The notes under the pieces are model-generated. The model worked only from the letters and a program-made list of their open reading frames with translations, searched no databases and was not told where the DNA came from. Both the position numbers and the translations under genes were made by a program. From contig NZ_DS483474.1 of the NCBI RefSeq assembly GCF_000154285.1, positions 62,001-126,000 on the forward strand: 64,000 nucleotides of DNA. The letters run 5' to 3'. Source of the stretch: Amedibacillus dolichus DSM 3991. GTDB lineage: Bacteria; Bacillota_I; Bacilli_A; Erysipelotrichales; Erysipelotrichaceae. Below are positions 9,345 to 56,096 of the stretch, piece after piece; within the stretch, counting starts at the first letter, position 1, and every line of letters starts with the position of its first letter.

Positions 9345-10349
9345 TCAATGTTCTCCACTAACTGAAACTAAAACTTTTCCTTTTTTGGCATATTCTAATG
9401 TTTTTAATTCTTTCCCCATTTCTTCTAAAGTAAGACGTGCACTTACTATTTTCTTTGTATCAATCAATCCGCTTTCTAATAAACGAACAGCTCTATCGCT
9501 ACAAAGCGGATTTAAATATGATGTAAATATACTCAGCTCTTTTGTATAAGCTTCAAATTGATTAAAACTAATTGGTTCTTCCGGATCTCCCAAGCCAAAT
9601 AATAATACTTTTGCATTTTTACCTGCTATCTGTATTGCTTGCTCCATAGTTGCTTTCAATCCTATACATTCAACAACATAATCAATATTTTCTTCTTTTG
9701 CAATTTCTTCGATTTCCTGATCCGTAACTGCTACTGTAGCTCCTAGATCGAGAGCTAATTCTCTTTTGGCTTTGTCTCGTTCAATAACTATAATTTTAGC
9801 AGCACCTGTAAACCGAATCAGTTGAAGCATTAAAGAGCCAATTGCCCCCATACCATACATCGCTATTGTTTTCCCACTTTTTATATTTAACAAATCAAGT
9901 CCATGAATAGCACAAGATAATGGTTCTGTAAACGCCGCGCTTTCCAAATCTAAGCTGTCTGCAATATGATAAACATTTTTTTCTGGTGGATATACATATT
10001 CCGAAAAGCCTTTTGCTACTCCATGACGCTCTAAACAGAAATTTGGTAACCCCCTTTGACACCAAATGCATTTTCCACATCCCCAACTTGGATCACAAGC
10101 AACGCGATCGCCAACTTTAAAATATTTACACTTTGGTCCAACCGCTGTTACTATACCTGAACATTCATGTCCCAAAATAATTGGTGGAATTACCACACTT
10201 GCTCCATTTTTTCCTTGAAATTTATGAATATCAGTACCACACAATCCACACCATGCAACTCGAATTTTTACTTCATCTGATTTTGGATCTCGATCTGGAA
10301 TATCGCGTACCTCATATTCAAAATTTCCTACATAATAACCTGCTTTCAT
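9345..10349 (-). CDS. Zinc-dependent medium-chain dehydrogenase (polyol/sorbitol type)
   Basis: 334 residues. Catalytic zinc ligands are visible in CGLCGTDIHKFQG (Cys and the Asp-Ile-His) and GHECSG. The structural zinc loop is CGKCIWCQRGLPNFC, four cysteines. The Rossmann motif is near AMYGMGAIGSLMLQ (about residue 165). Relatives are sorbitol, L-threonine and galactitol-1-phosphate dehydrogenases. In this operon it most simply oxidises the phosphorylated polyol made by the PTS to a ketose phosphate. It lies 9 nt after the aldolase gene and 13 nt before the IIC-IID gene. Confidence 0.88.
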   Translation of the reverse strand: MKAGYYVGNFEYEVRDIPDRDPKSDEVKIRVAWCGLCGTDIHKFQGKNGASVVIPPIILGHECSGIVTAVGPKCKYFKVGDRVACDPSWGCGKCIWCQRGLPNFCLERHGVAKGFSEYVYPPEKNVYHIADSLDLESAAFTEPLSCAIHGLDLLNIKSGKTIAMYGMGAIGSLMLQLIRFTGAAKIIVIERDKAKRELALDLGATVAVTDQEIEEIAKEENIDYVVECIGLKATMEQAIQIAGKNAKVLLFGLGDPEEPISFNQFEAYTKELSIFTSYLNPLCSDRAVRLLESGLIDTKKIVSARLTLEEMGKELKTLEYAKKGKVLVSVSGEH

Positions 10350-10358
10350 ATTTTAACC

Positions 10359-11207
10359 TCAATTATCTAAATTTTTAAACAGATGAATTTTATGTTCAAC
10401 TATTTCAGTTATAATATCTAAACAAGGAACTACATTTTCGCGATTTGATATATTTTCTCGATGCTCTTCATAACATTCTTTTGACTTTCTATTCCATTCA
10501 ACAAGCAACTCTGTACCAACATTAAATTTGCGAATACCTAAATTAATTACACGTTTCACATCTTTTTCTTTTACACCTGTTCCTCCATGAATTACCAAAG
10601 GAATATTTACCGCATTGTGTATTTCCTTTAATCTATCAAAATTAAGGTTTGTTTTTGACTTATACTGACCGTGGTTCGTTCCAATCGCTACCGCTAAAGC
10701 ATCTATTCCAGTTTCTTTTATAAAATTAACAGCATCTTCTGGCTCTGTATAACGAACATCTTCTTGAGCTACCGCAATACCATCTTCAGTACCACCAACA
10801 GTTCCTAACTCCGCTTCGACACTTACATTATGCAGTTTTGCATAATCCACCACTCTTTTAGTTCCCAAAATATTTTCTTTAAGTGGAAGCGAAGATCCAT
10901 CAAACATTACAGAACTATAACCTGCATCAATCGCTTTCCTAATCTCATCAAAATCTTTTGCGTGATCTAAATGTAATACAACATTTATGCCATATTCATC
11001 TGCCATTGAACGACAAACAGCAACAAGATTTTTATGTCCCACATAATTCGCAGTACCGCAGCTTGTTTGTATAATGACAGGAGTTTTTTGATTTACTGCT
11101 GCTTTTATAATTGCCGGAAGCATTTCTAAATTATGCGTATTGAATGCACCAATCGCCATATTCAACTCATCTGCTTCCTTTAATGTTTCTTTTAATGTGA
11201 TATACAT
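10359..11207 (-). CDS. Class II fructose/tagatose-bisphosphate aldolase family
   Basis: 282 residues, a little shorter than FbaA and close to GatY/KbaY. Metal-binding histidines are in VVLHLDHAKD (about residue 84), AIGTNHGQY (about 180) and IHGGTG (about 208). VMFDGSSLP and VEAELGTVGG are also family motifs. It cleaves a ketose bisphosphate to dihydroxyacetone phosphate and an aldehyde. It is the first gene of the minus-strand operon, with an AAAGGAGGAAATT ribosome site, and diverges from the RpiR gene across a 268-bp control region. Which hexose bisphosphate it prefers is not decidable here. Confidence 0.9.
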   Translation of the reverse strand: MYITLKETLKEADELNMAIGAFNTHNLEMLPAIIKAAVNQKTPVIIQTSCGTANYVGHKNLVAVCRSMADEYGINVVLHLDHAKDFDEIRKAIDAGYSSVMFDGSSLPLKENILGTKRVVDYAKLHNVSVEAELGTVGGTEDGIAVAQEDVRYTEPEDAVNFIKETGIDALAVAIGTNHGQYKSKTNLNFDRLKEIHNAVNIPLVIHGGTGVKEKDVKRVINLGIRKFNVGTELLVEWNRKSKECYEEHRENISNRENVVPCLDIITEIVEHKIHLFKNLDN

Positions 11208-11422
11208 AATTTCCTCCTTTGATTACAATAATATAAAAGAATAACACTATTCTTCTATATAGAAATTGCATCCATCTCAGCATTAAATTTGCTGAAATAT
11301 ACGGACATCATAATATCAAAATATACGTATGTTTTGACTACACCCATATTATACTTAATTAATATTAAATTACCTCGTTTTCTGTATGAAAATGCATTCT
11401 AAAAATTAAAAAAACAACACCT

Positions 11423-11448
11423 TCATGAATGCTTATTCATGATACAAT
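11423..11448 (+). promoter_or_regulatory. RpiR promoter -10 with overlapping dyad operator
   Basis: TCATGAAT (11423-11430), GCTT, ATTCATGA (11435-11442) form a perfect 8-bp inverted repeat, immediately followed by TACAAT (11443-11448), the likely -10 of the regulator gene at 11476. A looser related sequence, ATGAAAATGCATTC, lies about 40 bp upstream. It is a candidate autoregulatory and operon operator. The rest of the gap (11208-11422) is AT-rich, with a TATAAT on the minus strand near 11350. Confidence 0.55.
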
Positions 11449-11475
11449 ATTATCGCATTATTAGGAGGTTACATT

Positions 11476-12222
11476 ATGTTTATTCAAATTGACAAAACCA
11501 TTTATGAAAAACTTTCTGAAGCCGAAAAAGGTGTTATTCAATTCCTTAATCAAAATGAAGAAAAAATACCCTATATGAGTATTACCAATATTGCCGAAAA
11601 GACTTTTACATCTCAATCAACTGTTTCCCGCACTATCCAAAAATGTGGTTATCAAGGAATCTCGCAATTACGCTTTGCTATATCTCAACAAGAACAAATG
11701 AAAAATCATCACGAATCTAGTTACGGTGTTAATAATATTCTTTCAAAATCTTATCGTGAAAGTACAAAAACAATTGATAATATTAGCCCTGTTGCTATGT
11801 TACAGACTATTGAATTTATGAAAACCGCAAAAAGAATTTTTATTTTTTCTAGAGGCTTTACCGCATTAATTGCCGAAGAATTCCAAATGTATTTACAGTT
11901 ATTAGGTTACAATGCAATTATTGTTAAAGATGTAAAATGGATGGAAAATACAGAGCGAATCGTAAATACAAATGATGTTGTTTTTATTTTATCTGTACGA
12001 AATACAACACCTGAGCTTGCTACATCGGCTAGAGCCGCCAAAAGAAAAGGTGCTAAAGTAATAAGTTGTTGTTGTAAATCTCCTTGCGAATTAGAAAACT
12101 TTTCAGATATCATCATTTACGGTCATTCAGAACAAATTATGAAAGCTAGCGGAATGACTGTATACTCAAGAATACCTTTATTGATTATCACACGAACAAT
12201 TATTGAATATCTTGGACAATAG
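11476..12222 (+). CDS. MurR/RpiR-family transcriptional regulator
   Basis: 248 residues. The N-terminal HTH_6 domain shows SITNIAEKTFTSQSTVSRTIQKCGY-like spacing (about residues 35-65), followed by a SIS sugar-phosphate isomerase-like domain from about 105 (RIFIFSRGFTALIAEEF, then VVFILSVRNTTPE). Members sense phosphorylated sugars. It is divergent from the PTS operon at 3551-11207, which it presumably controls. The ribosome site TAGGAGGT is 7 nt before ATG. Followed by a terminator at 12276-12330. Confidence 0.88.
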   Translation: MFIQIDKTIYEKLSEAEKGVIQFLNQNEEKIPYMSITNIAEKTFTSQSTVSRTIQKCGYQGISQLRFAISQQEQMKNHHESSYGVNNILSKSYRESTKTIDNISPVAMLQTIEFMKTAKRIFIFSRGFTALIAEEFQMYLQLLGYNAIIVKDVKWMENTERIVNTNDVVFILSVRNTTPELATSARAAKRKGAKVISCCCKSPCELENFSDIIIYGHSEQIMKASGMTVYSRIPLLIITRTIIEYLGQ

Positions 12223-12275
12223 TTAAAGCCTATATCTTATTCTATATTTTTTACTTTCTCATATCCAATAGCATA

Positions 12276-12330
12276 AGAAAACCATATGATTTATTATGAT
12301 GACTAATCACAATATTTCATCTGGTTTTCT
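12276..12330. terminator. Bidirectional terminator between rpiR-type gene and DUF1667 gene
   Basis: AGAAAACCA (12276-12284) pairs with TGGTTTTCT (12322-12330) with a secondary CAT/ATG pairing inside. T-runs occur on both sides and the element ends directly at the stop of the convergent gene. Confidence 0.65.
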
Positions 12331-12681
12331 TTAATCAACATCTTTAGTAACAATTAAATCCGCATCACTTTGACAAATATGCTTTATCAATACATCACCT
12401 CGATGCAACGGTGCTTTTGCCTGAACCTGATTGATAATCTGCATGATTTCAAAAATCTTATCTTTCGCAACATCACAGCTCGTTTTCACACTGACACGTC
12501 TTTCTTTCGAATTTAACAGTTGAACTGTAGTGGTAATCGTACGTGTCGGATTCACTAGTTCTTTATGCCCATACTCAGCTCCCTTAGGACAACTATTGCC
12601 TGTAACAGAGTAATCATTGGTTTCATCTACTTTTAAATGACAGCCCTTGGGACAAACAATACAAATCAGCTCTTTCATCAT
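12331..12681 (-). CDS. DUF1667 zinc/iron-binding partner of GlpA/GlpB-type oxidoreductases
   Basis: 116 residues. The cysteine pattern CIVCPKGCHL (residues 7-16) and a further NSCPKGAEYG (about 29-38) are typical of DUF1667 proteins, which almost always follow a GlpA-like and a GlpB-like flavoprotein gene. The fourth-cysteine context suggests metal or Fe-S binding. Its ATG directly abuts the stop of the upstream flavoprotein gene, indicating coupled translation. The probable role is an electron-transfer or structural subunit of the complex (inference). Confidence 0.85.
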   Translation of the reverse strand: MMKELICIVCPKGCHLKVDETNDYSVTGNSCPKGAEYGHKELVNPTRTITTTVQLLNSKERRVSVKTSCDVAKDKIFEIMQIINQVQAKAPLHRGDVLIKHICQSDADLIVTKDVD

Positions 12682-13947
12682 TTAGTCCTCCTGTTTTAAA
12701 GATACAGTTAATGTATCGCCTTCTATTTTATCCATCAAAATCTTGGGAATCATCACTTTTTCCATTTCTCCCGGTGCTACGTGTTCCCTTTTAAACCTTG
12801 CTATAATCTTATGTTCATCTCGAACCTCGATAGCAACATTTTCACCGACATTGCGCACACGGAATGACAATTCTACTCCCTGATCCACAGCATCAAAGCG
12901 AATCCTCTGCGGTACAATATAGCCTATACAATCTCCCGGCTTTGTATTCAAAACTCTTTCGCTATGGAACGCACCATGCTGAATGTATTCTCCTGCTGCT
13001 TTTCCTGCCTTTTCACTTTCCGCACTGACAAAATCAACCAAATCATGGACATGCACAACATTGCCGGACGCAAAAATACCGGGTATGCTTGTTTCCATAT
13101 TTTCATAAACCACCGGTCCGTTTGTCCGCGGGTCCATTTCAATCGAAGCCTGTCTTGTTAATTCGTTTTCCGGAATCAATCCTACGGACAATAACACACA
13201 ATCACATGCAAATTCGATTTCGGTTCCGGGAATCGGATTTTTATGTTCGTCTACCTTGGATACAATTACCTTTTCCACGCGGTTTTTCCCTTGGATATCG
13301 GTAATCGTATGGGATAGATAGAGCGGTATATCGTAATCATTTAAGCATTGCACAATATTTCGATTTAAACCATTTGAATAAGGCATCAATTCTACACACG
13401 CCAACACCTTTGCACCCTCCAATGTCATACGTCTGGCCATAATCAAACCGATATCTCCACTTCCTAAAATAACTACACGTTTTCCCGGCATATAGCCTTC
13501 TACATTCACATATCGCTGTGCAGCTCCTGCTGTAAATACACCGGCAGGACGATCCCCCGGTATCGCAATGGCTCCTCGTGTTCGTTCTCGACAACCCATA
13601 TTCAAAATCAAAGCTTTTGCCTGCAACACCATATAGCCATGTGTTTCACTGGTACAGTAAACAGTTTTATTTGTATCAATCTCAATCACCATGGTATCCA
13701 ATAAAATTTCGACATTCGTTTTCTTAAGCAAATCCACATACTTCCCGGCATATTCCGGTCCTGTCAATTCCTCTTTAAAATGATGTAGTCCAAATCCATT
13801 ATGAATACACTGATTTAAAATTCCACCAAGCTCTTTATCTCTTTCAATTACCAAAACCTTATTTGCACCATGTTCACTAGCAGCAATCGCACTTGCCAAT
13901 CCTGCCGGACCCCCGCCAATAACAATTACATCATATTGTTGCTTCAT
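12682..13947 (-). CDS. FAD/NAD-dependent oxidoreductase, GlpB-like
   Basis: 421 residues from ATG 13947 (AGGTG six bases upstream); an in-frame GTG at 13956 is less likely. The FAD motif is VIGGGPAGLASAIAA near the N-terminus, the second nucleotide motif is VVILGSGDIGLIMARR about residue 155, and GIFASGNVVHVHDLVD at about 285 closes the FAD site. The layout is that of the pyridine-nucleotide oxidoreductase paired with anaerobic glycerol-3-phosphate dehydrogenase-like subunits. A beta-rich C-terminal tail follows. It sits between the GlpA-like and DUF1667 genes. Whether glycerol 3-phosphate is truly the substrate is open, because no glycerol kinase or facilitator gene is nearby. Confidence 0.87.
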   Translation of the reverse strand: MKQQYDVIVIGGGPAGLASAIAASEHGANKVLVIERDKELGGILNQCIHNGFGLHHFKEELTGPEYAGKYVDLLKKTNVEILLDTMVIEIDTNKTVYCTSETHGYMVLQAKALILNMGCRERTRGAIAIPGDRPAGVFTAGAAQRYVNVEGYMPGKRVVILGSGDIGLIMARRMTLEGAKVLACVELMPYSNGLNRNIVQCLNDYDIPLYLSHTITDIQGKNRVEKVIVSKVDEHKNPIPGTEIEFACDCVLLSVGLIPENELTRQASIEMDPRTNGPVVYENMETSIPGIFASGNVVHVHDLVDFVSAESEKAGKAAGEYIQHGAFHSERVLNTKPGDCIGYIVPQRIRFDAVDQGVELSFRVRNVGENVAIEVRDEHKIIARFKREHVAPGEMEKVMIPKILMDKIEGDTLTVSLKQED

Positions 13948-13948
13948 A

Positions 13949-15385
13949 CTAATCACCTATTTCTTTGGTTTGTCCAAGCAGAACCAAAGAACCTTTCTTG
14001 TCCTTCAAAACATCTTCTTGCGAAATATTTAACTCCCTGGCAATAATTTCCTGTACACGTGGTCCGCAGAATCCACCTTGACATCTTCCCATTCCCGTAT
14101 TGCATCGTCTTTTGATTGCATCAAGTGATGCTACGGTTGGACTTCGATGAAGAGCATCAATGATTTCCCCTTCGCTAATTGTTTCACAACGGCAAATAAT
14201 ACGTCCGTATTGGGGGTGCTTTTCGATCCACTGTGCTCTTTCAGCATGCGACATCTCTTGAAAACGAACAAGTTTCCTTGTAACTTTTGCATTTGGATTG
14301 CTTTCGGTAAATAAACCCTTTGTCTGTATTGCTTTTACCATATCAATTGCAATCGCACTGGCACTTGATAAGCCCGGAGATTTCATTCCTGCTATCTGAT
14401 AAAATCCTGAAACCTTGGATTCACCAATTACAAAATCATGATAATCACTACTTCTTGCTCGAATACCGCAGAATGTGCGGATATTTTCTCTGAAATTAAT
14501 ATTCGGTACAGACTTCAAAGCTTTTTCCTTTACAAAGGATAAGCCTTCTAAGGTAGTCGCTGTATCCGTTTCTCCACAATTTTCACTTGTCGGTCCTACG
14601 ATTAAATTACCATGTACCGTAGGAGCTACAAGAATTCCTTTTCCCTTTGCTGTCGGACATTGGAAAATAACGTGATGCACAAGTCCTCCTTGTGTTTTAT
14701 CTAACAAATAATATTCACCTTTGTTTGGCTGAATATGATATTCCGGTTCCATTACCATGGAAGTTATCTTCTCACAGGCAACTCCTGCAGCATTTACAAC
14801 TGTTTTCGCTTCATAAACGCCTTTTTCGGTTGTTACCAAAAAATAATCAGCTTGCTTTTGAATAGCAGTAACAGCTTCCTCCAAATGAAGATCCACACCA
14901 TTTTGAATTGCCAGTTCACTATAAGCAATAGCCAGCTCCCATGGATTGACGATACAAGCTGTCGGTGCATACAATGCCGCAATGGCATTAGGATTTATAT
15001 TTGGCTCCATTTCTTGCAGTTCTTCTTGATCTATGATGTGCATTCCCTCAACACCGTTTTGTAGACCGCGTTCGTAGATAGCATGTAAAGTTGCAAGTTC
15101 TTCTTTTTCAAACGCTACTACTAAAGAACCGATTTTTTTACAATGTACATCTAAATCCTCGCAAATTTTCGGAATCAGCTTATTGCCTTCAACATTATAC
15201 TTTGCCATATATGTTCCGTTTTCAGGATCATATCCTGCATGAATAATGGCGCTATTTGCTTTTGTTGTTTCATCGGCAACATCATTATTCTTTTCCAACA
15301 ATAAAACGCTCCCCTGATACTTACTTAACTCAAATGCTAACGAAGCTCCGCTTATCCCCGCTCCGATAATCACACAATCGTACAT
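13949..15385 (-). CDS. GlpA-like FAD-dependent dehydrogenase with BFD-type Fe-S domain
   Basis: 478 residues. The N-terminal FAD-binding motif IIGAGISGASLAFEL and the DAO-fold segment TKANSAIIHAGYD identify a glycerol-3-phosphate dehydrogenase/L-2-hydroxyglutarate oxidase-like subunit. The C-terminal BFD-type [2Fe-2S] domain has CRCETISEGEI (about 405) and RRCNTGMGRCQGGFCGP (about 440), i.e. four or five cysteines. It oxidises a 2- or 3-phosphorylated polyol or hydroxy acid and hands electrons to the partner flavoprotein. It is the first gene of a three-gene operon with a GGGAGGTACG ribosome site, divergent from the LacI-type gene. Confidence 0.87.
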   Translation of the reverse strand: MYDCVIIGAGISGASLAFELSKYQGSVLLLEKNNDVADETTKANSAIIHAGYDPENGTYMAKYNVEGNKLIPKICEDLDVHCKKIGSLVVAFEKEELATLHAIYERGLQNGVEGMHIIDQEELQEMEPNINPNAIAALYAPTACIVNPWELAIAYSELAIQNGVDLHLEEAVTAIQKQADYFLVTTEKGVYEAKTVVNAAGVACEKITSMVMEPEYHIQPNKGEYYLLDKTQGGLVHHVIFQCPTAKGKGILVAPTVHGNLIVGPTSENCGETDTATTLEGLSFVKEKALKSVPNINFRENIRTFCGIRARSSDYHDFVIGESKVSGFYQIAGMKSPGLSSASAIAIDMVKAIQTKGLFTESNPNAKVTRKLVRFQEMSHAERAQWIEKHPQYGRIICRCETISEGEIIDALHRSPTVASLDAIKRRCNTGMGRCQGGFCGPRVQEIIARELNISQEDVLKDKKGSLVLLGQTKEIGD

Positions 15386-15480
15386 ATACGTACCTCCCTA
15401 GAATCAATATTTACAGCTTTAAAATAGTGGAATTCATAAGAAAAGTCAAATTATGTAACAGCCAAATACTACTGTCTTTT

Positions 15481-15504
15481 TAGTAATCAAAATTTTGATT
15501 ACTA
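15481..15504. promoter_or_regulatory. 24-bp perfect palindrome, candidate LacI-family operator
   Basis: The half-site TAGTAATCAAAA is followed immediately by its exact reverse complement. It lies 96 bp upstream of the GlpA-like gene and 127 bp upstream of the LacI-type gene. Related half-sites TGATTA and AATCAAAA recur at 15571-15620 next to the lacI-type start. LacI-family operators are usually even palindromes of this size. Confidence 0.6.
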
Positions 15505-15570
15505 AAATAAAAGTTATCCGCTTACATAAATCCGTTGATTTTCTGCATCTTTCATGACATACTAATTATG

Positions 15571-15620
15571 TGATTAACATTTTGATTAAAAATCACTTAT
15601 TAATCAAAATAAATCAAAAG
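15571..15620. promoter_or_regulatory. Cluster of TGATTA / AATCAAAA half-sites
   Basis: Four short matches to the 15481 palindrome half-site fall within 50 bp (TGATTA at 15571, TTGATTA at about 15582, TAATCAAAA at 15601, AATCAAAA at 15612) and run up to the GGAGG of the LacI-type gene. This position fits autorepression of the regulator. Confidence 0.4.
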
Positions 15621-15630
15621 GAGGTACATT

Positions 15631-16707
15631 ATGGGAAAAAGAAACAAGATTACAACACGTGATATCGCACAAATCACCGGTGTTTCTCAAACAACGGTAT
15701 CTATGATATTAAGCGGAAAATCCGATGTCAGCTTTAAAGATGAAACTGTTCGGTTAGTGAAAGAGGCGGCCAAAAAATATCATTATGTAAAACCGAAAGC
15801 CAATAAGAAAAAGGTGAATAAAAAAACACTTTTAGATACGATCGTTATCTTTTCTCCGAATGTAACAAACGCTTATTATTCTGTCATCATTTCTAATATT
15901 TGTAAACAAGCGAAAAGATACCATTATCATATTTTTACCCTCACTACCTTACGCGAGGCAAGCTTGGAAAAAGAATATTTATATTATTTAAAAACCGTAC
16001 AGCCAACCGGCATTATCTTTTTATATCCTCCTGCAGCAGGTAATATCGAAATGATAAACGAATTGGCAAAATCTACCATTATTGTTGAAATTGGAGATAA
16101 ACCAAGCGGAAGTGTTTTTGATACGATTGAACTGAATTCTATTAAATCCGGAAAGCTTGTCGGACAGCATTTACTAGCGTTGGGTCATCGTAACATTGCC
16201 TATATTTCAAGTCCGATGTCAGATAAAGAAATCGGTCGAAACGATCGCTATGAGGGGTTGAAACAAGCATCGAACAACGTTCATGATCCGGTTCATATTG
16301 AATGCTATACATCAACACATGAAATCTTTATGAACTACCCTTACGAAAACCAAGAATATATGAATGGCTATCAATTATGCAGTGAAATTTTACAAACCAA
16401 GCACCCCTATACCGCTTTTGTTGGAAATAACGATATGACTGCTATCGGCATCATGGCTGCTTTAAAAGATGCTGGTCATTCCATTCCCAAGGATTATGCG
16501 GTATGCGGATTTGATAATATTCCCTTAGCTGCGAGTGAAATCATTTCTTTAACAACGATTGAGCATTGTTCAAATGAGAAAGGCAAGGAAGCAGTAGATT
16601 TAATTGCCAATAAAAAAAAGGAATCTTCGCGTACACGAAAAACGATTCGAATGGAATATGAACCTAAGTTGATTATTCGTAAATCTAGTCAAAAAAATAT
16701 CAAATAA
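15631..16707 (+). CDS. LacI-family transcriptional regulator
   Basis: 358 residues. The N-terminal HTH is textbook: TTRDIAQITGVSQTTVSMIL (about residues 7-27), then the hinge region. The periplasmic-binding-like sensor domain spans about 65-350 (ISSPMSDKEIGRNDRYEGL, AFVGNNDMTAIGIMAALKD, CGFDNIPLAASEIISLTTIE). It is divergent from the GlpA-like operon and the likely owner of the palindromes in the gap. AAAGGAGGT precedes the ATG by 6 nt. The hinge around residues 50-70 is unusually lysine-rich (KPKANKKKVNKKT). A terminator follows. Confidence 0.9.
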   Translation: MGKRNKITTRDIAQITGVSQTTVSMILSGKSDVSFKDETVRLVKEAAKKYHYVKPKANKKKVNKKTLLDTIVIFSPNVTNAYYSVIISNICKQAKRYHYHIFTLTTLREASLEKEYLYYLKTVQPTGIIFLYPPAAGNIEMINELAKSTIIVEIGDKPSGSVFDTIELNSIKSGKLVGQHLLALGHRNIAYISSPMSDKEIGRNDRYEGLKQASNNVHDPVHIECYTSTHEIFMNYPYENQEYMNGYQLCSEILQTKHPYTAFVGNNDMTAIGIMAALKDAGHSIPKDYAVCGFDNIPLAASEIISLTTIEHCSNEKGKEAVDLIANKKKESSRTRKTIRMEYEPKLIIRKSSQKNIK

Positions 16708-35677: not shown

Positions 35678-35809
35678 TTATTTCACTTGAGTTAATCCAT
35701 CACCACTTAAACTAGTTACTTTGAATGTTAAAGTATCTGTAAAACGAGAGCCAGGTTTTTCATTCTCTACAATTTTATCCAATTTTTTCCATTTTTTTAT
35801 TTCTTCTTT
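35678..35809 (-). pseudogene. 3' fragment of a gene for a probable secreted or pilin-like protein
   Basis: The frame ending at TAA 35678-35680 reads VENEKPGSRFTDTLTFKV then TSLSGDGLTQVK. It has no start and is cut off by the decayed recombinase gene, with which it overlaps. The TDTLTFKVT style resembles C-terminal beta strands of Gram-positive surface proteins, but 40 residues do not allow assignment. It lies upstream of, and in the same direction as, the envelope locus, and was possibly its first gene. Confidence 0.45.
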
Positions 35810-36325
35810 CTACCCATTTCGTGAATGTGTTATGATTAGTATTCAACTGTTTTGCAGCTTCTCTTTTACTTATTTTATGTTCTGCTCACAAATTGTACAC
35901 TTCATTAAAATTTTGATGCCCTTTGCTTAATATTCTCCCGCTCGATTTGTGCTACATATGAGAGAATCTGTATTACTAACCCTGATATCAATTTCCTCGT
36001 TAAATCATTTGTTTCCACACGAGTATCTAGTAAAGGGCAATCAAGTACGATAATATCAACATTTCTTTCTTTCGTTAAATATCTCCATTGCTCCATAATT
36101 TCATCGTAATTTCTTCCAAACCTATCAATTGATTTAATGTAAACTTCATCTCCCTCCAGCAATTTTTTCACCATCCTTTGATAATTTTTTTCTTTCAAGA
36201 TTTTTCCCAGACTGCTTATCCACAAACATATTCTTATCTTCGATTTTTAATTGCCTAAGTGACTCCACTTGTCTGTCGATATTTTGATCTTTACTTGATA
36301 CTCGTATATATCCATATTTTTTCAC
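35775..36325 (-). pseudogene. Decayed serine recombinase (resolvase/invertase family)
   Basis: It starts at GTG 36325 after AGGAGAGGTTT. Resolvase catalytic Ser in YIRVSSKDQNIDRQVESLRQ, then SGKN; the frame shifts at a 7-A run (36185-36191). The second frame continues VYIKSIDRFGRNYDEI, DTRVETNDLT and LSYVAQIERENIKQR. After further damage near 35920, the C-terminal HTH is readable as ISKREAAKQLNTNHNTFTKW. At least two frameshifts plus stops make it non-functional unless rescued. It is related to Tn3-type resolvases and Pin invertases. Confidence 0.8.
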
Positions 36326-36938
36326 AATAAACCTCTCCTTATGTTCTTATACTTTTTCAAATATTTTTCTGTCAAACTTAGATTATAATAAATTATTATG
36401 AAAAATCACCTAAACAACATGTCATTCTTTTTTCATTCATATAATGGGGATTCTACTAGAATCAGTGGTAGCTTAGTCAAATACTTAGTGAAAATCAACA
36501 AAAAAAGAGCTATAACAATTAAAATAGCTCTAAATATAAAGAACAGGATTGTCTAATCGTTAGTGATATGATGTCACTATAATAGATAGTGTAAATAATT
36601 TAATGCTAGTATAAAATTTTATATTAAGAAGAAAAATTTTAAGCATTGTAAAAAATATTTGGATAGTTAAAATCAAATATTTCTTTAGACAAAGAAATAA
36701 ATATGGCAGATGGAGTTGTTAGTAATTGGACAAAACAATATAAGATATATAATAAAACTGTATATCCTGACCATATACTTATCAGTAACTGCGCTGCTTT
36801 CCCTTCCAATCGAATGTTTTAGCATTCATTAGAATCAGCTTTTTTGCTTGCCAAATCTTTCAATGCATCCTCATCTACTTCATATTTTTCTTTATTTACA
36901 CTTTAATAACAAAGGAAAATAAAAAAAGCGCCGCAGCG
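36326..36938. other. 613-bp gap with gene debris
   Basis: No intact gene seen. A minus-strand terminator is present at 36498-36531 (AGAGCTAT / ATAGCTCT stem with a T7 tract). A 15-bp palindrome, GATTCTA-C-TAGAATC, is at 36449-36463. Two short open stretches (plus strand ending at 36820; minus strand ending near 36824 with VNKEKYEVDEDALKDL) may be remnants but are too short to assign. Confidence 0.5.
36498..36531 (-). terminator. Orphan terminator
   Basis: On the minus strand AGAGCTAT, a 10-nt loop, ATAGCTCT, then TTTTTTT. No intact gene ends at it, consistent with a lost gene in this gap. Confidence 0.7.
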
Positions 36939-44567: not shown

Positions 44568-44597
44568 AAGCATAGTTAACAAATTATGCTTTTTTCT
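44568..44597 (+). terminator. Terminator of the 43986 gene
   Basis: AAGCATA (44568-44574), 10-nt loop, TATGCTT (44585-44591), then TTTTCTTTTTC. The second arm and T-tract overlap the lysine codons at the end of the convergent minor pilin gene. Confidence 0.7.
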
Positions 44598-45258
44598 TTT
44601 TCACAGCTAGCTTTCTTATAACACTTAACATAGCTAATCCTGAAACTAATAATAATACTATCCATAATGTTATATTCGTGTTATCACCTGTTCCAACTGA
44701 ACTATCTGGAACATTAGGAGAAATAGGAACTTCGTTCTCATTTTTCTCAATAAATTTTGGCTTAGAATAGACATTAAATATCTCACTGCTATCTTCAATC
44801 ATAGGTATGGATATTAAAAAAGGTTCTGAACAATATTTACTATCATCACTCTCTTTTTGAGACACTAAATATAAGCCTAAATTTAAATTAGAAAATTGAA
44901 CAACTCCATTGTTATTCGTATTTTTTTCTTCACTAAATGAAATATTCTCACTTTTCATATATGCTTGTAATTCATAACTTGTTTTTTTCATTTGTGATGC
45001 ATTCATATTTGTAGAAATATTCTTGAAATATTTAAAATCTTCCACATTGACAAATTCTCCGTTAACAATATCTGCAACTTTAACAATTTGAAATGGCATA
45101 TCGACAAACTCAATGAGTTTACCATCATCAAGATAATGAGCATACAGAGAAATGGAGCCTATATTTTCTTTAGCAAAAACTGTTCTTGTAGGCAAAAAGA
45201 TAAATAGCATACAAATGATTATGATTTTCAAATGATTTTTATTTACTAACCACTTCAT
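44584..45258 (-). CDS. Minor (basal-type) pilin with sortase signal
   Basis: 224 residues. Signal peptide at about 8-29 (HLKIIIICMLFIFLPTRT). A Cna-B-like domain lies between, with GVVQFSNLNLGLYLVSQKE (about 120). The C-terminal sorting signal deviates from LPxTG: VPDSSVGTGDNTN, then a membrane helix (ITLWIVLLLVSGLAML) and basic tail. In sortase-assembled pili such subunits serve as the base for wall anchoring. It overlaps the sortase gene by 20 nt, end of the operon. Confidence 0.85.
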   Translation of the reverse strand: MKWLVNKNHLKIIIICMLFIFLPTRTVFAKENIGSISLYAHYLDDGKLIEFVDMPFQIVKVADIVNGEFVNVEDFKYFKNISTNMNASQMKKTSYELQAYMKSENISFSEEKNTNNNGVVQFSNLNLGLYLVSQKESDDSKYCSEPFLISIPMIEDSSEIFNVYSKPKFIEKNENEVPISPNVPDSSVGTGDNTNITLWIVLLLVSGLAMLSVIRKLAVKKKKA

Positions 45259-46087
45259 GTTTTTTCCTCCTTACCTTCCATAACAAAAGCATTAATGCTA
45301 AAACTGTAAACCCAATGAGAAGAATTTGAATTTCAAACGGTATATGAATTCCGTTATTAACTTCATTGGCTTGTTCTTCAACCGCTTTTTGATAATCAAT
45401 CCTTGTTCCTCTAACTAACAATCGATGAGTATTGACAGAATAAGGAGTACAAGTAATCAATGTTACATAGTCTTTTCCATCTATAATTTCAAGATCTTTT
45501 GTTTCTGTTGGTAAGACGATCTTGATTTGATCAATTTTATAAGCACTTGTATTTCCCAGCACTTCCATATAGAAAATATCTCCAATTTCTAACAAATCTA
45601 AATCCGTAAACAAACTGGAGCTTGGCAAGCCTCTATGACCTGATAAAGCCACATGGGTACTCTTACCCCCAACCGGTAAAGAAGTTCCTTGTAAATGTCC
45701 GACTCCTTTTTGTAAGACCTTATCTGAAGTAGTATGGTAGATTGGTAATTTAACGTCAATTCTAGGAATCTGAATATATCCCATGACTCCATCTCCATTA
45801 GAATTAAGCAAACTCATGTAATACTTATCTACTTTTTCAATACTCATAAAAGGATCATACAATTCCCCTTTTCCTATCAAAGAGGAATTGTATGCTTGTG
45901 CTTCTTGAAGCATTTTATTTTTTGTCTCTTGATCCAATCCTACAATAGATTTTTCATACGATTGAATGACTTTGGAGCTATGAATTCTTGACAAATAATC
46001 ACTAACTGTGGGATAGAGCAATACACCAACAAAAAACAATAATGCTATGACCCTGATTCCATCAAAAATTCTCTTTTTTCTATTCAT
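45239..46087 (-). CDS. srtC: Class C sortase (pilin polymerase)
   Basis: 282 residues. N-terminal membrane helix (about 8-26) and C-terminal helix (about 252-272), typical of class C. Catalytic residues: His151 in ALSGHRGLP, Cys213 in TLITCTPYS and Arg222 in NTHRLLVRGTRI. A lid-like segment KGELYDPF (about 73-80) precedes the core. It links pilin subunits through lysine-LPxTG bonds outside the membrane. Lies 8 nt after the major pilin gene. Confidence 0.94.
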   Translation of the reverse strand: MNRKKRIFDGIRVIALLFFVGVLLYPTVSDYLSRIHSSKVIQSYEKSIVGLDQETKNKMLQEAQAYNSSLIGKGELYDPFMSIEKVDKYYMSLLNSNGDGVMGYIQIPRIDVKLPIYHTTSDKVLQKGVGHLQGTSLPVGGKSTHVALSGHRGLPSSSLFTDLDLLEIGDIFYMEVLGNTSAYKIDQIKIVLPTETKDLEIIDGKDYVTLITCTPYSVNTHRLLVRGTRIDYQKAVEEQANEVNNGIHIPFEIQILLIGFTVLALMLLLWKVRRKKHEVVSK

Positions 46088-46095
46088 AATATGTG

Positions 46096-47532
46096 TTATT
46101 TATTTTCATTTAATTTATTCTTTTTATTTGATTTCATAAATGAATATAAAACTGCTAAGATTCCTCCTACACCAACAACGGTAAATAACACTGTACCCAT
46201 TCCACCGGTTTCCGGTAATAATGAACCTTTGTTGTTATTTACTGTTACATCGTTACCAGTTACTGTAACATCAGTTCCATTATTATCAGAAGATGCTTCA
46301 ATTGTGATAGTTGTAGGAGTTGTTAATTTGTTATATCCATCTGGTGCTTTTGTTTCCACTAATGTATATTTTCCATCATCTAACCCCTTAACAGTAATTT
46401 TACCGTTAGTTGGTGATACTAATGTAGATGTTTTAGTTAATTGATTATCTGCATCAGTAGCAACTCTATATTCACCATTTCTTAAATCAACAAATTCAAT
46501 TGGATCACCATTTGTATCAGTTCCTCTATATAAGTTGAATTCTGCTCCTGCTAATGTTTCAGTTCCATCTCCATTTTTCTTTGTAATAGTCAAATTATGT
46601 GTTCTTACAATTACTTTATCTGGAGTTCCCTGAGTTAAATGATCAGGATCATTTCCATATTCAACATTTGCAGTATTGGTTTCTTTACCAGCAGTAACTG
46701 CGTTTTCATTTAACACTGCATCATATTCAAATACGATAGCTTCATTTGCTTGATCTTTATATTTAATAAAGTCATTAATTTCGATAGTAATTTCTTGTCC
46801 TTTAACTGTTACTGTATACTCAGTGTCTGTAAGTTGTTTATTACCGATTGTAACTTTTTCATTTAATGTTTCTTTTGTTACTGTTAATCCTGAACTCATA
46901 GTATCTGTTAATTTAAAAGTATATTTATCAAATCCTGTCATGTTTGGAACCATAGACTCAACTTTGAATCGAATAGGATCTCCAACTTGAGCAGAATTCC
47001 ATTTATCTCCATCAACAGTTTTATCTACATCAGGAGTTTTCCCTTTTAGATAAACATCTTGAGTGGCTTTTGCGACTGTTGTAAACATTGGAGTATAGTT
47101 TTCACCACTAGGGATAATAACATAATATCCTGCATCTAAATTCTCGATAGTATATGTTTTGGCATCTGTCCCTATTAATGTTTCAACAGCAACTAAGTTT
47201 TCGGTTTTAACATATTCTTTCACTTTATTTTGAAAAACCGCAGTCTTTACATTTTTTTTAATATAGTTATATGCCTGTTCATCAGTAGCATAACTATTTT
47301 GCGTAAAGAATTTTCTAAAATTATCTGCAATCGTATAAGCTGCTGATTCCCCATCTGCTGTAACAGTGGCATTCATCATCTTATAAACCTTAAATTCCAC
47401 TCCGTTAACATTGTGTTTCCCTGTGTGCAAGGTAATTGTTCCTTGTGTTGCGGCAAATACATTTGTTACCATAGAGAACATAACAACAAATGTAAGTGCA
47501 AGTGTTCCTAGTTTTTTAAGCATGTCTTTCAT
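46096..47532 (-). CDS. Major pilin, LPETG-anchored (SpaA-type)
   Basis: 478 residues. Signal peptide ends near TNVFAATQG (about 28). N-terminal domain, a pilin-like region DVYLKGKTPDVDKTV (about 165, lysine candidates for polymerisation), isopeptide-type domain with DTMSSGLTVT and YDAVLNENAV, then a Cna-B domain (ITKKNGDGTETLAGAEFNLY) with the E-box TLVETKAPDGYN (about 400). Sorting signal LPETG at about 439, membrane helix, positive tail. The start overlaps the adhesin gene end by 17 nt. Confidence 0.92.
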   Translation of the reverse strand: MKDMLKKLGTLALTFVVMFSMVTNVFAATQGTITLHTGKHNVNGVEFKVYKMMNATVTADGESAAYTIADNFRKFFTQNSYATDEQAYNYIKKNVKTAVFQNKVKEYVKTENLVAVETLIGTDAKTYTIENLDAGYYVIIPSGENYTPMFTTVAKATQDVYLKGKTPDVDKTVDGDKWNSAQVGDPIRFKVESMVPNMTGFDKYTFKLTDTMSSGLTVTKETLNEKVTIGNKQLTDTEYTVTVKGQEITIEINDFIKYKDQANEAIVFEYDAVLNENAVTAGKETNTANVEYGNDPDHLTQGTPDKVIVRTHNLTITKKNGDGTETLAGAEFNLYRGTDTNGDPIEFVDLRNGEYRVATDADNQLTKTSTLVSPTNGKITVKGLDDGKYTLVETKAPDGYNKLTTPTTITIEASSDNNGTDVTVTGNDVTVNNNKGSLLPETGGMGTVLFTVVGVGGILAVLYSFMKSNKKNKLNENK

Positions 47533-55243: not shown

Positions 55244-55266
55244 TCTTTCATTCCCCTTATAACAAA

Positions 55267-55668
55267 CTATTGTTTCAATATTTCTTCAACAGTAATTGAA
55301 GATAATCTTTCCTCCATAATTTTTTGTAGAAAACAATAAGTTTTTCTAACAGAACAATATTCTGTTGCACATCGACTACAATACTTATCCGGTTCTAAAC
55401 ATCGGTTTATCTTAATGGTAGGTTCCATCAATTTTATAATATCTAATAAGTTAATCTGCGCTTTGTCTTTCGCAATGGAAAATCCACCATTTTTTCCATT
55501 CTATACATTTATCAATTTTTCATTTTCTAACTTTTTGGTTACCTTTAATATATAATGCTAAGGGATACACAAATTCTCTGGTAACTCTTTTGAAGTTGAT
55601 TTGCCTTGTGATGTAGCTAGATATAAAACAATTCTAATTGCATAGTCTGTTGTTATATTCAATTGCAT
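55267..55668 (-). pseudogene. Rrf2-family regulator with two in-frame TAG codons
   Basis: ATG 55668 after TTGGAGGATTTAT. The frame runs 133 codons to TAG 55267, broken only by TAG at codon 37 (55558-55560) and codon 56 (55501-55503). The parts read as an Rrf2 protein: LNITTDYAIRIVLYLATSQG, then IP-*-HYILKVTKKLENEK, V-*-NGKNGGFSIAK, and a cysteine cluster (CLEPDKYCSRC, then CS, C) suited to an Fe-S cofactor. Ends 23 bp before the adhesin start. Both stops can arise from CAG (Gln) by one change. It probably used to sense redox or iron and control the pilus operon. Confidence 0.85.
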
Positions 55669-55765
55669 ATAAATCCTCCAATTTTTCTATAACCAAACAT
55701 GTCAGGGTATGTATATCGCAAAAAAACAAACGGATTTTTCACCCTTTTATTTAATGGTTTATAAT

Positions 55766-55876
55766 GTACACATTTTTTACCAGTATCTTCTAAGCTTAAA
55801 TATATGGCTTATTAAGTCATTTAATATGATAATACATAATTTTCCAAAAAACAATAATTTGGTAAAAAATGTGTAC
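55766..55876. repeat. 111-bp segment bounded by perfect 17-bp inverted repeats
   Basis: GTACACATTTTTTACCA (55766-55782) and its exact reverse complement (55860-55876) enclose 77 bp of AT-rich DNA. It lies 98 bp upstream of the Rrf2-type gene that heads the pilus operon. Inside, on the minus strand, is a possible promoter (TTGGAA, 17 nt, TTAAAT) directed at the operon. Candidate invertible switch or MITE-like insertion. The rest of the gap to 56096 shows nothing I can assign. Confidence 0.7.
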
Positions 55877-56096
55877 TTTTTATTGAAAAAACGTTATGAT
55901 TTAATTTTTTATCTATTTATTTAAAGTATTATGATTTATATGTAATAGGCTTCTGCCTTCACATTTACCAATTTTTATTCACTTACCATAATTGATAGAT
56001 TTCATCAAATTCTTTTCCTTATGTCTTATTAGTGTTAGCAATATCGGTGTTACAAATATGCTCATTTTATTTACATACACCTTAGAAGCATAAAAG

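Follow-up and report, generated by a model that had tools for sequence, protein, structure and literature searches.

A nonsense-disrupted Rrf2-family regulator between an invertible DNA element and a sortase-pilus operon in Amedibacillus dolichus

The pilus operon of the window, by which we mean the whole 64,000-nucleotide stretch of Amedibacillus dolichus DNA analysed here, appears to be the cargo of a mobile, phase-switchable cassette, of which the cis-encoded serine invertase has decayed and the Rrf2-family regulator gene (rrf2) was later disrupted by nonsense codons. We put the probability of this reading at roughly 0.7. The cassette would consist, in this order, of a serine invertase, a 111-bp switch, the Rrf2-family regulator, an adhesin, a pilin, a class C sortase and a minor pilin (Table 1). 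The lineage of the window would have kept the surface genes and the switch, its cis invertase being reduced to a tail and rrf2 being interrupted more recently. Inversion of the switch would decide whether the operon is transcribed, and Rrf2, through putative binding, would modulate the same operon, such that loss of Rrf2 would leave pilus expression to be set solely by the orientation of the switch. Apparently, this pilus was built for on/off switching, and neither of its two local controllers has survived. As a pseudogene, rrf2 is ordinary; the interest lies in its setting.

Table 1. Features of the pilus locus and related elements in the window.
Feature	Position	Strand	Basis or remark
rrf2 pseudogene (Rrf2-family regulator), two internal TAG	55267..55668	-	133 codons, translation + Pfam
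TAG, rrf2 codon 37	55558..55560	-	
TAG, rrf2 codon 56	55501..55503	-	
rrf2 ribosome site GGAGG	55675..55679	-	read from sequence
Giant LPXTG adhesin, intact, 2575 aa	47516..55243	-	Cna_B, Gram_pos_anchor
Major pilin (SpaH/EbpB type)	46096..47532	-	profile matches
Class C sortase	45239..46087	-	profile matches
Minor pilin (GramPos_pilinD1)	44584..45258	-	profile matches
Inverted repeat, operon-proximal arm, GTACACATTTTTTACCA on + strand	55766..55782	.	repeat search
Invertible core, 77 bp	55783..55859	.	77/77 identical to G006, orientation opposite
Inverted repeat, distal arm	55860..55876	.	repeat search
Decayed cis serine invertase tail	55907..56015	-	pieces of last ~40 residues; two frames, stops
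Third serine invertase homologue, broken	35796-36328	-	frame changes + missing stretch

Translation of rrf2 yields exactly two internal stops and a terminal TAG, and translation and Pfam agree on two in-frame TAG codons in an otherwise complete Rrf2 frame, as the original prediction had claimed. Its coordinates were right as well, and the strand is minus. The read-through product matches Pfam Rrf2 over residues 5-132 (E 8e-29), the domain being full-length (PF02082, 100.9 bits; TIGR00738, 93.5 bits with a cut-off of 73.3), and in a comparison with Rrf2 homologues 21 of 23 family-conserved columns are retained. With its frame interrupted by the stops, the gene is best taken as a pseudogene of the family, and the break at codon 37 lies in what we take to be the N-terminal DNA-binding part of the protein. 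A cysteine cluster is present in the sequence, and none of the named Rrf2 subgroups in Pfam and NCBIfam reaches its cut-off; any sensing of redox state or iron by the product we infer only from the family. When the whole genome was searched with the Rrf2 model, this copy (98 bits, with the two TAG inside) proved to be the sole full-length Rrf2 of the 2.19-Mb, 19-contig genome. The good ribosome site (TTGGAGGATTTATATG) and the position at the head of the pilus operon, with a gap of 23 bp (55244-55266) to the ATG of the giant adhesin, are likewise as predicted. What had been overlooked is that inverted repeats and the remnant of an invertase lie immediately upstream. With this invertible DNA switch, the operon would possess another layer of control, and the suggested permanent deregulation of its pili is no more than a possibility.

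The intergenic element upstream of rrf2 spans 111 bp and consists, as in an inverton, of a 77-bp core enclosed by perfect inverted repeats of 17 bp each; with up to two mismatches allowed, the arm repeats occur nowhere else in the genome. The same element is found upstream of the intact rrf2 of the nearest relative compared, a genome of the same family and another genus, which we refer to as G006. When the two copies are aligned unflipped, the flanks match but the core does not, whereas flipping the window core gives a match at every position and raises the alignment score from 343 to 491. BLAST gives the same picture, with the core matching on one strand and a weaker match of the complete stretch on the opposite one. 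As the core is identical only if flipped and the flanks match unflipped, an inversion between the repeats must have occurred since the split of the two copies, so that both orientations are seen between genomes. Moreover, the core is much more alike than the flanks, and this unusually perfect conservation indicates either strong constraint or recent exchange. Promoter scores inside the pilus switch are not above those of shuffles in either orientation, and it is by analogy with the plasmid pGTC3 (see below) that we consider it a putative invertible promoter. A partial match to the switch in a further genome (G265) lacks both an inverted repeat and related genes, and was taken as chance. Viral contigs contained neither a relative of rrf2 nor a copy of the repeat pair.

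In G006, the putative cognate recombinase adjoins the switch as an intact serine recombinase of 203 aa (PF00239, 92.7 bits), the gene of which ends 16 bp from the repeat; the tail remnant of the window sits at this very place. Decay is more advanced in the cis invertase than in rrf2, and the invertase was therefore probably the first of the two to be lost. Elsewhere in the A. dolichus genome, an intact relative (G000:C2:279008-279601) is 84% identical to the pilus invertase of G006 and has repeats of its own behind it, each arm of which contains two tandem sites resembling the pilus repeat. Within the main reading, the pilus switch would now either be locked or be flipped in trans by this enzyme. 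The latter, which would keep the pili phase-variable, is a serious possibility at somewhat short of even odds. Besides the relatedness of the enzyme, it is favoured by the resemblance of its repeats (AAAGTAGACATTTTATCCCA and alike) to the pilus repeat AAAGTACACATTTTTTACCA, although the match counts are partly circular, as these same sites had served to construct the search pattern. Furthermore, the two pilus arms have kept their identity over 17 bp, and the core has stayed the same despite diverged flanks. However, sites of this enzyme's type carry GTAGAC where the pilus arms have GTACAC, serine recombinases may tolerate little variation in their sites, and other reasons for conservation of the core are conceivable.

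Conversely, the switch may be locked as we see it, where the successive loss of cis invertase and Rrf2 would represent a decaying pilus control or would have left the pili constitutive or silent; here, too, we would stop slightly below an even chance. Next to the decay of the cis invertase and the null regulator, the window contains a third invertase homologue that is likewise disrupted, and S. equi offers a precedent in the nonsense codon of its FimI pilus-locus regulator (PMC2654543). Locking is harder to reconcile with an intact related invertase in the same genome, with intact repeats and core, and with purifying selection on the pilus genes.

Apart from the pilus locus, the same genome carries a second switch cassette (L140:9006-9608, 9633-9835 and 9897-13142, on G000:C2), in which the intact invertase just described and its inverted repeats are followed by a surface protein of 1081 aa with SHIRT and Ig-like domains, and a promoter-like TAGACT-17-TAAAAT in this cassette points toward the surface-protein gene. 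In another genome, an invertase that shares 89% identity with the G006 enzyme (L160; G297:C1:2236691-2237296) is broken by one TGA, and no repeat was found adjacent to it. Given this broken copy, loss of the pilus-type invertase may be recurrent.

So how old is the damage to rrf2? The G006 copy, which is without stops, shares 80% amino-acid identity with that of the window. Measured against G006, the dN/dS of rrf2 (0.154) is close to that of the adhesin (0.139), with the sortase at 0.082, and amino-acid replacements, with distant homologues as outgroups, are split 12:11 between the window branch and the G006 branch. Apart from its stops, rrf2 has evolved like its functional neighbours. The damage would therefore be young; we infer from these comparisons that the stops entered rrf2 late on the window branch, and that the gene is most likely a recent pseudogene. 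The genes downstream form a sortase-pilus locus by their profile matches (NF033745, 283 bits; NF033902, 145.8 bits; Gram_pos_anchor on the adhesin) and are under purifying selection, as judged from dN/dS with G006. As such, recent loss of the regulator with the pilus operon intact, one of the meanings originally proposed, agrees with both dN/dS and the replacement split. The derivation of both TAG from CAG stands in part: a one-step origin is plausible for codon 37, which is Gln in G006, but not for codon 56, which is not Gln there, and both columns vary widely within the Rrf2 family. As to the consequences, pilus expression may be raised, lowered or unlinked by the loss of Rrf2, and polarity from the untranslated rrf2 message could lower expression of the adhesin. 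In the same comparison with G006, the dS of the major pilin (0.22) is far below that of the adhesin (0.71) and the sortase (0.66), as if this pilin had been exchanged separately.

That the TAG codons are an artefact of assembly or of a strain mixture is improbable. Although the genome is a draft in 19 contigs, such an origin would have to account for two separate substitutions within 60 bp, free of indels, on a 365-kb contig where the adjacent pilus genes are open. General reassignment or suppression of TAG, the former already considered unlikely in the original prediction, was rejected as unlikely: RF1 is present with a score over its cut-off, and none of the 41 tRNA genes found by covariance search, with anticodons assigned by ARAGORN, carries the UAG-reading anticodon CTA, so that neither hallmark of UAG recoding, a UAG-reading tRNA or RF1 loss, is found. 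Stop statistics, based on 417-449 kb of stretches from this genome, agree. TAG ends 37 of the 196 open frames of at least 250 codons in 417 kb (TAA 124, TGA 35). Frames split by a single stop and lacking an overlapping long frame, counted in 449 kb, number 41 for TAA, 16 for TGA and 12 for TAG, which matches plain stop usage with no excess of TAG. A codon-usage scan for further interrupted genes was set aside, having given a weak signal in which TAG was not in excess. Past the first stop of rrf2, there is no in-frame start codon with a ribosome site that would allow a restart. With RF1 intact, no UAG tRNA, TAG an ordinary stop and no restart site, rrf2 is most likely null. Readthrough of both TAG, yielding Rrf2 at a low or regulated level, is very unlikely given the two serial stops, the intact RF1, the lack of a suppressor tRNA and of a general TAG-split excess, and the variable columns at both codons, as the one point in its favour, the frame showing no extra decay past the stops, is equally explained by young damage.

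Returning to the cassette reading, the whole arrangement is intact in G006, where its neighbours include relaxase, coupling protein, TraG-like and integrase genes, which places it in a conjugative element. Among plasmids, the best match to rrf2 (52.7%) is on the conjugative E. faecalis plasmid pGTC3 (NZ_KY303941, locus L150), where a recombinase, GTAGAC repeats, Rrf2 and an LPXTG leucine-rich-repeat protein follow one another. This is the gene order of the window, with an invertase 70% identical and likewise an LPXTG protein, but the cargo is the leucine-rich-repeat protein instead of a pilus, and the genes are all open. Unlike the pilus switch, that of pGTC3 contains a clear promoter-like site in the deposited orientation, TAGACA-17-TATAAT, which starts in the repeat, is directed at rrf2 and is abolished by flipping. 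Relatives of the invertase (E up to 1e-40) are present in 88 of 316 genomes from the order, and several of them have GTAGAC-like repeats that precede a gene whose start resembles a signal peptide. Operons headed by an Rrf2 gene and containing orthologues of both the adhesin (43% and 48%) and the pilin, but no such invertase, are found in G021 and G049.

In these two genomes, Rrf2 is fused to HD-GYP (L157:9334-10734, + strand, 467 aa, in G049; L154:9313-10752, - strand, 480 aa, in G021), the fusion genes lying directly upstream of the orthologous giant adhesin and pilin. A link between pilus control and c-di-GMP through this fusion is possible; in the open-access literature, we found no paper on pilus control by Rrf2-HD-GYP. 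In a Mediterraneibacter MAG (L118:9279-9546 and 10162-16056), an Rrf2 gene stands 12 bp before that of a 1965-aa protein, and a 27-nt inverted repeat pair upstream (96%, 214 nt apart) is possibly a further switch.

Several known systems share parts of this arrangement. In S. zooepidemicus SZO08560, GTAGACTTTA/TAAAGTCTAC repeats enclose an invertible promoter, which adjoins genes for a recombinase and an LPXTG protein and for which orientation-dependent transcription has been measured (PMC2654543). The short repeat-bordered switch beside a recombinase and an LPXTG gene is like that of the window, and the repeats resemble each other, but neither an Rrf2 gene nor a pilus operon is described there. 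The S. equi FimI locus carries a nonsense codon 43 in the regulator SEQ0934 and, like the window, has retained the pilus genes of a sortase pilus locus; this regulator is TetR-like instead of Rrf2, with a single stop, and no invertible switch is described (PMC2654543). Phase-variable sortase pili of a gut bacterium are also known from Bifidobacterium breve, where the switch is reported to work by replication slippage instead of DNA inversion (PMC9187656). For an Rrf2-headed invertible pilus, no paper was found in the open-access literature.

Switchable surface structures help decide the attachment and persistence of gut bacteria. If conjugative elements carry an Rrf2 sensor immediately after a flipping switch, a single cassette would unite chance, through inversion, with sensing, through Rrf2. 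We suggest, tentatively and with less than even confidence, that an undescribed mobile cassette of Bacillota, made up of invertase, GTAGAC/GTACAC switch, Rrf2 and a surface protein or sortase pilus, couples stochastic inversion to sensing in this manner, and that in the window a trans enzyme would have taken over the switch and Rrf2 been discarded. The window represents a natural loss of both sensor and local invertase with retention of the pilus genes. As the cassette of G006 is intact and the window has lost both, the two controls would be separable in principle.
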